From an uncultured Eubacteriales bacterium (GTDB lineage: Bacteria; Bacillota; Clostridia; Oscillospirales; Acutalibacteraceae), in contig ONAS01000010.1 of assembly GCA_900315815.1 (NCBI GenBank), forward strand, positions 1 through 34,715: a DNA stretch of 34,715 nt, given 5' to 3'. A model generated the notes under the pieces. The model saw nothing but the letters and a program-made list of their open reading frames with translations, made no database searches and was not told where the DNA came from. This document shows positions 3,060 to 29,488 of the stretch, in pieces (the stretch's first letter is position 1; every line of letters starts with the position of its first letter). The position numbers and the translations under genes were made by a program.

Positions 3060-4208
3060 ATGTATAATATTCTGAAATTGAACAAGATCGCCGCCGTAGG
3101 CACAGACCGCCTCGGCGAGAATTACAACTGCACAGATGAGTGCGCTAATCCCGACGGCATCCTTGTCCGCTCCGCTTCCATGCACGAGATGGAGCTGCCC
3201 GAGAGCCTTCTCGCCATCGCGAGAGCCGGCGCGGGCGTCAACAACATCCCGCTCGACAAATGCACCGAAAAGGGTATCTGCGTATTCAACACTCCCGGCG
3301 CAAACGCGAATGCCGTTATGGAGCTGGTCATCGCAGGTCTGCTGCTCGGCTCCCGCAAGATCGCGCAGGGTATCCAGTGGAACCTGACCCTCAAGGATGA
3401 CGAAAACTGCCTCAAGACCGTAGAAAAGGGCAAGAGCCAGTTCGTCGGTCCCGAGATCAAGGGCAAGACCATCGGCGTTGTCGGCCTCGGCGCTATCGGC
3501 GTTCTGGTCGCAAATGCCGCCCGCGCGCTGCATATGCACGTTGTCGGTTACGATCCCTACCTGAGCGTAGACGCGGCGCTCCACCTGAGCCGCCACGTTG
3601 CCACCGTCAAGAACATCGACGAGCTGTACGCGCAGGCTGACTATATCACCTATCACCTGCCCCTCAACGACGGCACCCGCGGCATGGTCAATGCCGAGAG
3701 CATCGCGAAGATGAAGGACGAGGTCCGCATCCTCAACTTCTCCCGTGACGGTCTGGTCGTTTCCAAGGACATCATCGACGGTCTGGCCGGCGGCAAGATC
3801 GCTTCCTATATCACCGACTTTGCCACCCAGGATCTGCTGGGCGTTGACGGCGTAGTCGCGATGCCCCACCTCGGCGCTTCCACTCCCGAGAGCGAGGACA
3901 ACTGCGCGATCATGGCTGCCGACGAGCTCAAGCAGTATCTGGAGCTGGGCAACGTCAAGAACTCCGTCAACTTCCCGAACGTATCCATGCCCAAGTCCGG
4001 CGACGTCCGTTACTGCGTATGCCACAACAACACCCCGAAGATCATCGCAAAGCTCCTTGAGGTCATCGGCGGCAACGTTGAGAACATGGAGAACAAGAGC
4101 CGCGGCGATTTCGCTTACACCATCATCGACGCGACCGCGCCCAACGCCGACGCGGAAGCGGCGATCAAGGATATCAAGGGTATCGTCAGATACAGAGTCA
4201 TCAAATAA
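3060..4208 (+). CDS. serA: D-3-phosphoglycerate dehydrogenase
   Basis: This 382-aa NAD-dependent enzyme (EC 1.1.1.95) catalyses the first step of serine synthesis. The Rossmann motif VGLGAIGVLVANAA lies at about residues 140-154. The substrate-binding arginine is in ILNFSRDGLVV, where the usual RG pair reads RD. The catalytic His is in MPHLGASTPE. The C-terminal 60-70 residues, starting near YCVCHNNTPKIIAKLLEVI, form an ACT-type regulatory domain, suggesting feedback by serine. The start follows AAGGAGTAACGAT, and the gene lies 31 bp after serC in one operon. Length is close to the short ACT-bearing SerA type. No serB lies nearby. Confidence 0.93.
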   Translation: MYNILKLNKIAAVGTDRLGENYNCTDECANPDGILVRSASMHEMELPESLLAIARAGAGVNNIPLDKCTEKGICVFNTPGANANAVMELVIAGLLLGSRKIAQGIQWNLTLKDDENCLKTVEKGKSQFVGPEIKGKTIGVVGLGAIGVLVANAARALHMHVVGYDPYLSVDAALHLSRHVATVKNIDELYAQADYITYHLPLNDGTRGMVNAESIAKMKDEVRILNFSRDGLVVSKDIIDGLAGGKIASYITDFATQDLLGVDGVVAMPHLGASTPESEDNCAIMAADELKQYLELGNVKNSVNFPNVSMPKSGDVRYCVCHNNTPKIIAKLLEVIGGNVENMENKSRGDFAYTIIDATAPNADAEAAIKDIKGIVRYRVIK

Positions 4209-27911: not shown

Positions 27912-27940
27912 ATTATATTGAAAATACCTAAAAAGTGTGA
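27912..27940 (-). promoter_or_regulatory. Possible promoter of the transketolase operon
   Basis: Minus strand TATAAT (27917-27912) with TCACAC 17 bp upstream (27940-27935), a poor -35. An alternative -10 TAGAAT lies nearer the gene with no -35. The boxes overlap the divergent coaX promoter on the other strand, so the two would compete. Confidence 0.4.
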
Positions 27941-27946
27941 TACAAT
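27918..27946 (+). promoter_or_regulatory. Promoter of coaX
   Basis: TTGAAA (27918-27923), 17 bp, TACAAT (27941-27946). Start near 27953 excludes the upstream in-frame start at 27937. Confidence 0.8.
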
Positions 27947-27966: not shown

Positions 27967-28743
27967 ATGTATATGCTGCTTGCGGTCGATATCGGAAACA
28001 CCAATATCAAGTTCGGCATCTTTGACGGCGATACGCTGAAAAGAACGCTGACCATTTCCTGCAACAAGGACAAAACTGCGGACGAATACGGCGTAGAGCT
28101 GTACTCGCTGATCCGCGTGATGGGCATCCACCGCACGGACTTTGACGGCTGTATCATCAGCTCGGTCGTTCCGACGGTCACGGCGCGGATCCGGTCGGCT
28201 GTCAGCGATCTGCTGGGCATCGACGCGCTGGTCGTCGGTCCCGGGATCAAGACAGGGCTGAACATCCACATCGAGGATCCGTCCCAGCTGGGCGCGGATC
28301 TGGTCGTCGCCTGCGTCGCCGCAAACGCAAAGTACCCCGCTCCCTGTATCGTCATCAGCCTCGGTACCGCTACCGTCATGTGCGTGATCGATAAGAACCG
28401 CGCGATGCTGGGCGGCCCGATCGCACCGGGCGTGATGGTCTCGCTGAACGCCCTGACCGGCAACGCCGCGCTGCTGTACTCTGTATCGCTGGACGCTCCG
28501 GAATCCGTCATCGGCAACAACACCGACCGCTCCATCCGCTCCGGCGTGGTATGGGGCAATGTGTGCATGATCGACGGCATGATCGATAAGATCGAAAAGG
28601 AGCTGGGCGAGCCGTGCACCGTCGTCGCGACGGGCGGCATGGCAAAGACCATCATCCGCCACTGCTCTCACGACATCACTCTGCAGGACGATCTGATCAT
28701 GCAGGGGCTGAAGCTGATCTACCGCAGAAACCGTAAAAACTGA
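27967..28743 (+). CDS. coaX: Type III pantothenate kinase
   Basis: This 258-aa protein is a CoaX-type kinase (EC 2.7.1.33), the first step of coenzyme A synthesis from pantothenate. Motifs are AVDIGNTNIKFGIFDG near the N-terminus (ATP-binding loop), GPGIKTGLNI, QLGADLVVACVAA (catalytic Asp), SLGTATVMCVID and GGPIAPGVMVSLNAL. Length is standard. ATG 27967 follows AAAGGAG. Biotin-binding BirA often sits beside coaX in Firmicutes but is absent here; an ECF vitamin transporter gene follows. Confidence 0.95.
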   Translation: MYMLLAVDIGNTNIKFGIFDGDTLKRTLTISCNKDKTADEYGVELYSLIRVMGIHRTDFDGCIISSVVPTVTARIRSAVSDLLGIDALVVGPGIKTGLNIHIEDPSQLGADLVVACVAANAKYPAPCIVISLGTATVMCVIDKNRAMLGGPIAPGVMVSLNALTGNAALLYSVSLDAPESVIGNNTDRSIRSGVVWGNVCMIDGMIDKIEKELGEPCTVVATGGMAKTIIRHCSHDITLQDDLIMQGLKLIYRRNRKN

Positions 28744-28777
28744 ATATCGATCCCTTGTGGATTTGATAGATAAATAT

Positions 28778-28863
28778 ATTGCGCTTCACCTCGCCGAAGC
28801 AAGCTGTGCCGGCTCGGGCGATCCGAAAGGATCCTCACCGCCCCGCACAAGCGATACGGCAAT
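28778..28863 (+). ncRNA. Structured leader RNA before the ECF transporter gene
   Basis: Hand folding gives a closed multi-branch form. ATTGC (28778-28782) pairs with GCAAT (28859-28863). Inside are hairpin GCTTC/GAAGC (28783-28787, 28796-28800) and a long arm: GC-TGTGC (28803-28809) with GCACA-A-GC (28845-28852), GGGCG (28816-28820) with CGCCC (28839-28843), and ATCC-GAAA-GGAT (28821-28832) capped by a GNRA loop. No T run follows, so it is not a terminator. The ribosome site starts about 10 nt after it. It may be a riboswitch or protein-binding leader; I match it to no class I know. Confidence 0.5.
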
Positions 28864-28891
28864 CATGAGGGAGGCAGCAGGAGGTATTATT

Positions 28892-29488
28892 ATGTCAACA
28901 GCAAACAAGAAGTTCAACACCTATCGCCTGACGGCGCTGGGGATCCTGACAGCCATCATCATCGTGCTGCAGATATTCTCCACGTTCGTCAAGATCGGTC
29001 CGTTCTCCATCACGCTGGCGCTGATCCCGATCGTCATCGGCGCGGCGATGTTTGGCGCGGGCGCAGGCGCGTATCTCGGCTCGGTATTCGGCGTCGTGGT
29101 ACTGCTGATGTGCATTTTCGGCGCTGACGTCGGCGGTGCGATGGTATGGAACGCAAGCCCGATCATCTGCGCGATCCTGGTCATCCTCAAGGGCGCTCTC
29201 GCCGGCTTTGAGGCAGGCGTGCACTACCGCGCTCTCGCTCAGACCAACAAGATCCTCGCCACCGTAGTCGCGGCGCTGATCTCTCCGCTGGTCAACACCG
29301 GTATCTTTGTCATCGGCATGATGATCTTCTTCAAGGATATCCTGAATGCGTGGGCAGGCGGCTCTGACGTTCTGTATTACATCATCTTCATGATGACCGG
29401 CGTGAACTTCCTCGTAGAGGTCGCCACCAATATCGTACTGTGCCCCGTGGTCGTGAAGATCATGGACGCGGTCAAGAAGAACAAATAA
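28892..29488 (+). CDS. ECF transporter S component (perhaps pantothenate)
   Basis: This 198-aa protein has six hydrophobic helices and the start RLTALGILTAIIIVLQ typical of energy-coupling-factor S components, which bind vitamins for uptake and work with a shared EcfA-EcfA'-EcfT module. SITLALIPIVIGAAMFGAGAG is the conserved early segment. The ATG at 28892 follows GGAGG (28880-28884). Its neighbour coaX phosphorylates pantothenate, so pantothenate is a likely substrate (PanT-like), but this rests on context. No EcfT or EcfA gene is in the window. Confidence 0.85.
   Translation: MSTANKKFNTYRLTALGILTAIIIVLQIFSTFVKIGPFSITLALIPIVIGAAMFGAGAGAYLGSVFGVVVLLMCIFGADVGGAMVWNASPIICAILVILKGALAGFEAGVHYRALAQTNKILATVVAALISPLVNTGIFVIGMMIFFKDILNAWAGGSDVLYYIIFMMTGVNFLVEVATNIVLCPVVVKIMDAVKKNK

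Follow-up and report, generated by a model that had tools for sequence, protein, structure and literature searches.

The closest described relative of the leader RNA that we discuss here is the pan motif (Rfam RF01749). This is an orphan RNA of panB/panC/panD operons, and the accessible part of its original description (Weinberg et al. 2010, PMC2864571) suggests, from its near-twofold layout and its tandem copies, that it is recognized by a dimeric protein. The accessible text of three transcriptome papers reports pan RNAs either before panB operons (PMC4342826, PMC5670726) or without naming a gene (PMC4634765). The accessible portion of a reconstruction of vitamin metabolism in gut bacteria (PMC6593275) lists TPP, FMN, THF, and B12 riboswitches and does not list pan, and the terms "riboswitch" and "RNA motif" do not occur in a 2024 paper about CoA in B. 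subtilis (PMC11487621) or in a 2025 review of CoA in the gut (PMC12570885). Among the literature matches listed, no paper reported that panT has a pan motif or is controlled by an RNA; subscription journals, supplements, and the Rfam member list lay outside the scope of this search, and the priority of our finding is uncertain. To our knowledge, nothing has been identified that triggers the pan motif since its description in 2010.

Other systems are comparable in part. RAT hairpins are short stems with two offset unpaired sites, and they are read by LicT/SacY-type antiterminator dimers. Our leader resembles them in its short stem, in its two offset unpaired sites, and in the homodimeric reader that we propose, but the sequences, the genes, and the platforms differ. 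The vitamin riboswitches that precede ECF transporter genes (TPP, FMN, THF, and cobalamin) are similar in that a leader controls vitamin uptake genes. However, a preliminary description of our locus had noted that the motifs of these four are missing, and indeed Rfam matches none of these riboswitches in the window. (By the window we mean the whole stretch of 34,715 nucleotides that was analyzed, contig ONAS01000010.1 of an uncultured member of the Eubacteriales.)

The same description had placed a structured leader between coaX and the gene for an ECF vitamin transporter, and the gene assignments bear out this location. The features of the locus are as follows.

27918-27946, + strand: promoter-like site before coaX, TTGAAA-17-TACAAT (consensus match only)
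27973-28743, + strand: coaX, type III pantothenate kinase (NCBIfam NF009855 over cut-off; Pfam PF03309)
28780-28782, + strand: 5' strand of helix P1a, UGC, which pairs with GCA at 28877-28879 (GGC/GCU and UGA/UCG in relatives)
28783-28787, + strand: 5' strand of the five-pair helix P1b, GCUUC, which pairs with GAGGC at 28871-28875 (two-sided changes at 5 of 5 pairs in alignment A1, described below)
28788, + strand: 5'-side bulged A (present in each of the 36 rows of A1; all 31 canonical pan hairpins have it at this place)
28789-28792, + strand: 5' strand of helix P2, CCUC, which pairs with GAGG at 28867-28870
28793-28866, + strand: variable apical insert, with a GCCG/CGGC extension and a GAAA-capped arm (GAAA at 28825-28828); the loop is 3-28 nt in most near relatives
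28867-28870, + strand: 3' strand of P2, GAGG (covariation in A1; fold)
28871-28875, + strand: 3' strand of P1b, GAGGC (covariation in A1)
28876, + strand: 3'-side bulged A (present in each of the 36 rows of A1)
28877-28879, + strand: 3' strand of P1a, GCA (covariation in A1)
28880-28884, + strand: ribosome-binding site GGAGG, abutting the hairpin (from the sequence; about 0-3 nt after the stem in the leaders of relatives)
28892-29488, + strand: PanT-like S component of an ECF transporter, 198 amino acids (Pfam PF12822 over cut-off)

A scan of the + strand of the gap between coaX and panT found no promoter-like or terminator-like site, and judging from the sequence, the two genes are probably a single transcript. 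The nearest solved chains of the S component are 4rfs_S (E = 1.9e-7) and 6zg3_C (E = 1.4e-4), which we take to be PanT structures. These are its only credible solved relatives, and it scores below the cut-off for Thia_YuaJ. We describe it as PanT-like, with a predicted substrate. The genome, which is 96.88% complete, has no match to panC or panB, so this bacterium probably depends on the uptake of pantothenate. The original suggestion of a cis-regulatory leader for a vitamin transporter gene, with a link to pantothenate or CoA, fits with the PanT-like S component, the adjacent coaX, and the missing panC and panB.

There is a structured stretch upstream of the transporter gene, as had been proposed, but its fold and its extent are different. 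The conserved hairpin runs from 28780 to 28879 and consists of UGC/GCA, a bulged A, GCUUC/GAGGC, another bulged A, and CCUC/GAGG. Within its arms (28780-28792 and 28867-28879), every pair is formed and both A's (28788 and 28876) are in place. The minimum-energy fold of 28774-28894 is an outer hairpin (28779-28880) with the two bulged A's, at -44.9 kcal/mol (z = -2.34; 4 of 200 shuffles were as good). The preliminary description had instead given 86 nt (28778-28863), closed by an outer stem AUUGC/GCAAU (28778-28782 with 28859-28863) and ending about 10 nt before the ribosome site. That interval stops short of the 3' strand of the conserved hairpin, whose last pair (28879) actually abuts the GGAGG. 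Because the interval ended before this strand, the outer stem that was drawn was an accidental one: it is displaced in the longer fold, and the relatives keep the other hairpin. By itself, the interval folds at -32.0 kcal/mol (z = -1.87), which is only modestly better than shuffles (8 of 200 were as good). A GNRA tetraloop is present as claimed, and its arm does fold, though inside the apical insert. The other proposed arm, GCUUC/GAAGC, also falls in the apical loop, which has just 9 nt in the relative L096 and 24 nt in L097.

To describe the relatives, the S-component protein was searched against 300 genomes of the same taxonomic family, of which 201 had a match. In the loci that we fetched, the homologue usually lies after coaX, and the intergenic stretches have two short arms in common and little else. 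We placed the arms in 48 leaders with ungapped position matrices, not by their pairing. The resulting consensus is UGC-GCUGU-A-YCC ... GGR-ACAGC-A-GCA-GGAGG, and the loop between the arms measures 3 to 76 nt. For alignment A1, made with MAFFT, we kept the 36 leaders with loops of at most 15 nt and left out the 12 leaders with longer loops, including the one in the window. The only two invariant columns in A1 are the two A's (36 of 36 rows). The 11-pair stem is formed in 97.0% of 395 cells, whereas shuffles reach 79% and slid versions 32-62%, and there are two-sided changes at 10 of the 11 pairs (81 cells). The covariation score is 0.657, versus 0.305 +/- 0.020 for shuffles and 0.126-0.201 for slid versions. 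RNAalifold draws the same stem from A1 unaided. So the covariation that had been proposed as a check on homologous ECF leaders is strong, but it belongs to the hairpin at 28780-28879 and not to the fold that was originally drawn.

The hairpin is also enriched at the starts of these genes. A strict descriptor asks for 11 pairs, at least 7 of them G-C, for both A's, and for a position near a start codon. If the search ends 12 nt past the start codon, 48 of the 80 named relatives and 3 of 610 other ORF starts satisfy it; if it ends at the start codon, 45 of the 80 and 2 of the 610 do. A looser descriptor of the architecture finds 74 of the 80 and 17 of the 610. All of these counts are inflated by related sequences, and both the matrices that placed the arms and the descriptor give weight to the A's. 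The six misses are L159 and L167 (too few pairs), L152 (an AT-rich chance match), and L155, L171, and L175 (loops above 100 nt). The gene in the window satisfies the strict descriptor, which is satisfied in just 2 of 1,000 shuffles of its leader. Upstream of the hairpin's gene, coaX is found in 67 of the 80 named loci, and the named hosts include Ruminococcus bromii (L142 and L154).

The apical loop ranges from 3 to 81 nt across 74 loci. It is short in close relatives of the window's copy, with 9 nt in L096 (85% protein identity), 8 nt in L099 (80%), and 24 nt in L097 (90%), and long in L112 (43 nt) and L115 (81 nt). In the window, the insert is 74 nt. We considered that this insert might be a dispersed repeat, and we rejected the idea: its next best match in its own genome has E = 0.996. 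By eye, the leaders of L003, L005, L010, and L115 have a duplicated 5' arm or a palindrome-rich insert of similar sequence in the loop, as if a small mobile repeat had entered the hairpin loop in some members of the genus. We also note sub-threshold matches to Gut-1 RNA near two panT loci (L032 at 3285-3354 with 36 bits and L041 at 1125-1196 with 32.3 bits; the cut-off is 50).

A model built from A1 (R1) has matches at E <= 0.01 in 155 of the 300 family genomes; seven of these have two or three matches and the others have one. Among the best 30 of the 155 (one per genome), the hairpin lies directly before an ECF S gene in all 30, and coaX is adjacent, either upstream or downstream, in 28. By best tblastn query, the S genes behind these 30 loci fall into two sequence subtypes. 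Across 299 genomes of the phylum, R1 has few true matches. L067 is a real one, with an ECF gene. The top match from the phylum, L066, reads like a coding stretch for a tyrosine recombinase (by reading the frame, without a search), and we took it as a chance match, so the E-values of such a short model are not proof by themselves.

How does this hairpin relate to the pan motif? A search of 14 sister leader loci against Rfam gave one sub-threshold match to pan, in L041 (26.6 bits versus a cut-off of 36.2), and this match coincides residue for residue with the leader hairpin. RF01749 passes its cut-off in 2 of the 300 family genomes, namely at L051, before panB-panC, and at L052, where a tandem pan motif lies between coaX and an ECF gene (genes by Pfam). 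In the phylum, it passes in 106 of 299 genomes. We compared the first hairpins of 31 canonical pan RNAs (the 30 best loci from the phylum plus L051). All 31 have, in the same register, three pairs, an A, five pairs, an A, and two pairs, and in each of them at least 9 of these 10 pairs are formed. Both A's are present in 31 of 31 rows of their alignment (A3), and these hairpins have a covariation score of their own of 0.640 versus 0.271.

Models built from one group recognize the other in part. A model from canonical pan RNAs alone (R2), run without filters on 27 panT loci (94,320 bases), gave 25 matches. The panT hairpin, in register, accounts for 16 of these and for 10 of the 11 best; the remaining one of the 11, in L044, resembles a second hairpin immediately upstream, and 8 matches are elsewhere. 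With filters, R2 gave two matches in 35 other loci, both of them to the correct panT hairpin. Run with default filters on the 80 nearest relatives, R2 detected no panT leader, and its one match is away from the leader. In the opposite direction, the three best matches of R1, run without filters on the 31 canonical loci, lie on the first pan hairpin. Tandem leaders of the panT type are found in L052 and probably in L044.

The panT leader and the pan motif thus share three pairs, a 3' bulged A, five pairs, a 5' bulged A, and at least two more pairs, in the same register, and a GUAUC...GAAC core beside the 5' bulge is often common to both. Both also have pantothenate genes downstream: in the window, the hairpin stands before a PanT-like ECF gene with coaX. 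There are differences as well. Most canonical members have two hairpins, but the panT leader has one, and the 150 nt upstream of it hold no second one in any of the 74 relatives searched. The gene downstream of panT leaders is a transporter. In panT leaders the ribosome site abuts the stem, whereas canonical RNAs mostly have a terminator: an intrinsic terminator lies within 140 nt after the canonical RNA in 22 of 30 cases (versus 2 of 180 control windows) and after 0 of the 57 panT leaders examined. (These 57, out of 80, have the exact string AGCAGGAGG and a locus above 5 kb.) And few panT leaders reach the Rfam cut-off. From these sequence comparisons, the panT leader looks like a diverged pan RNA with a single hairpin and a ribosome site, which Rfam's two-hairpin model misses. 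The structure, the register, and the intermediates place it with the pan motif rather than in the new leader class that had been suggested as a possibility.

The copy in the window requires more care. At gathering scores, Rfam gives no match in the whole window. A permissive Rfam scan of 28650-28950, up to E = 10, yielded only a chance match to a snoRNA and none to RF01749 or another relevant family. The Rfam scan that was originally called for therefore returned no relevant family on this copy, and the match to a known class came only via relatives. R1 and R2 also miss the full hairpin in the window, and R1 misses it in its own genome as well, presumably because of the 74-nt apical insert. 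Because all of these models miss it, our assignment of this copy relies on the comparison with near relatives, the descriptor, and the fold, and we expect that it behaves like the hairpins of its relatives.

We think it likely that the leader is a single pan-motif hairpin that acts as a translational off switch for panT in the coaX-panT operon. With ample pantothenate or CoA, a factor would hold the hairpin, the 30S ribosome would not be able to use the adjoining GGAGG, and the translation of PanT would stop. If the vitamin is short, the factor would release the hairpin and PanT would be made. The stem itself does not pair with the GGAGG, so blocking the ribosome would need a bound factor or a stiff stem. 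Most likely, the factor would be a protein that binds RNA as a homodimer and recognizes the bulged A's on either side of the five-pair helix. Each strand of this helix has a bulged A at its 3' end, and a homodimer would suit this near-twofold layout. Which way the control runs, what the signal is, and what kind of factor is involved are inferred.

Alternatively, the hairpin might be a riboswitch: pantothenate, a phosphorylated intermediate, or CoA would bind the bulged-A core and stiffen the hairpin against the ribosome site, which predicts direct binding. The genes behind the motif do concern pantothenate or CoA (the biotin genes and L206, described below, apart), there are two classical expression platforms, and the accessible text of PMC9971707 and PMC10043782 counts a CoA riboswitch among the classes that are missing. 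But the core would be very small, with two bulged A's and hardly another invariant base; the helix pairs are free to change; there is no conserved loop; and the near-twofold layout and tandem copies fit a dimeric protein, as the accessible part of the original description argues (PMC2864571). We consider a riboswitch to be possible but not probable. The factor might instead be CoaX, with the pantothenate kinase moonlighting as an RNA-binding repressor of its operon partner, and this seems less probable still. CoaX is dimeric. It is encoded upstream or adjacent in most of the panT loci (the 67 of 80 and the 28 of 30 given above), and by our own reading of two lists, coaX has a match in 102 of the 106 genomes whose pan motif is over the cut-off and in 164 of the 193 others. 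However, such an operon neighborhood is expected from shared metabolism, and four of the 106 pan-positive genomes have no coaX match: G452 and G518 (97% and 99% complete) and G373 and G616 (82% and 63%). Similarly, G563 (96%) has the leader hairpin before an ECF gene and no coaX match. We do not favor CoaX as an obligate factor.

Other readings explain less. An inverted repeat close to a gene start could be an operator in the DNA that a transcription factor binds, a simple attenuator, or a hairpin that affects RNA stability. None of these would account well for a loop that varies from 3 to 81 nt, for G-U pairs (which are common in A1, with 15 of 36 rows at one pair), for invariant unpaired A's, or for a ribosome site almost immediately after a stem that no terminator follows in the 57 leaders mentioned above, and we consider them very unlikely, although the hairpin may have some part in RNA stability. 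Least credible, to the point that we would set it aside, is a two-armed, 86-nt aptamer of a new class at 28778-28863, as originally drawn. Its GAAA-capped arm does fold, but its outer stem gives way in the full-length fold, the 3' strand of that stem is missing in L096 and L099, and its arms sit in an insert that most relatives lack. We rejected it as the conserved structure.

A regulatory role is indicated because one hairpin has two usual outputs, a terminator or a ribosome site. For the canonical RNAs, antiterminator pairing is only moderately supported: the end strand of the second hairpin can pair with the 5' arm of the terminator over at least 6 bases in 12 of 22 cases, versus 237 of 1,100 shuffles. 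Many of the canonical RNAs at L176-L205 have a similar second hairpin, CCGCUUGGA...CCGAGACGG.

At the best 30 of the 106 canonical loci, there is a match to panB, panC, or DUF2520 within 1.5 kb in 29, and the other one has an ECF match together with a gene for BirA. In many pan operons, the gene next to the motif encodes a DUF2520/Rossmann protein (for example in L176, L180-L182, and L064). Another 19 pan loci are mostly second copies within their genomes, and 12 of these have matches to panB, panC, or DUF2520. In six of the other seven, the motif precedes panD (L215 and L222), panE (L220, with a PanE-type ketopantoate reductase), ECF-coaX operons headed by a BioY or BirA gene (L211 and L217), or an OPT-family transporter gene (L209, described below), and the seventh is L206; the motifs of L217, L220, and L222 are below the Rfam cut-off. 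Except for the biotin genes and L206, the gene set concerns pantothenate or CoA.

This arrangement suggests that one shared sensor governs both the synthesis and the import of vitamin B5, so that uptake is tied to the same control as synthesis, and the swap of terminator for ribosome site, together with the wider range of genes, suggests that the signal is CoA or pantothenate status. More speculatively, and we would not bet on it, the pan hairpin could be a portable sensor of that status, coupled to a terminator for synthesis or to a ribosome site for import, with a regulon that is wider than in the papers covered here and takes in PanT, PanE, a PanS-like transporter, and CoaX operons, as well as an OPT transporter paired with a type II pantothenate kinase. 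The single-hairpin version of about 40 nt at a ribosome site, in 155 of 300 sampled family genomes, is a simpler object in which to search for the sensor; the named records of this family are mostly gut and rumen relatives of Ruminococcus. If the RNA itself were to bind a metabolite, then it would be the missing riboswitch of the CoA pathway, in a minimal form.

A few loci deserve separate mention. In L202, a PanS-like gene of the bile-acid symporter family (NF047939 at 299 bits, below the 400-bit cut-off) and then panC lie behind the pan motif. L204 also has the motif with panC, and its PanS-like transporter is putative. On the minus strand of L206 (G358:C110:67500-71500), a two-hairpin pan motif and a terminator-like stretch are followed by a 78-amino-acid ORF with two CxxC pairs. 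This ORF has no Pfam match, and the locus has no match to panB, panC, or DUF2520; the small protein is a possible member of the regulon. Finally, in L209 (G548:C27:10500-15000), a pan motif at 1592-1676 (52.5 bits, over the cut-off) precedes a gene for an OPT-family transporter, which is followed by a gene for a type II pantothenate kinase (NF009842 over cut-off). This transporter is a candidate for a bacterial importer of CoA precursors.
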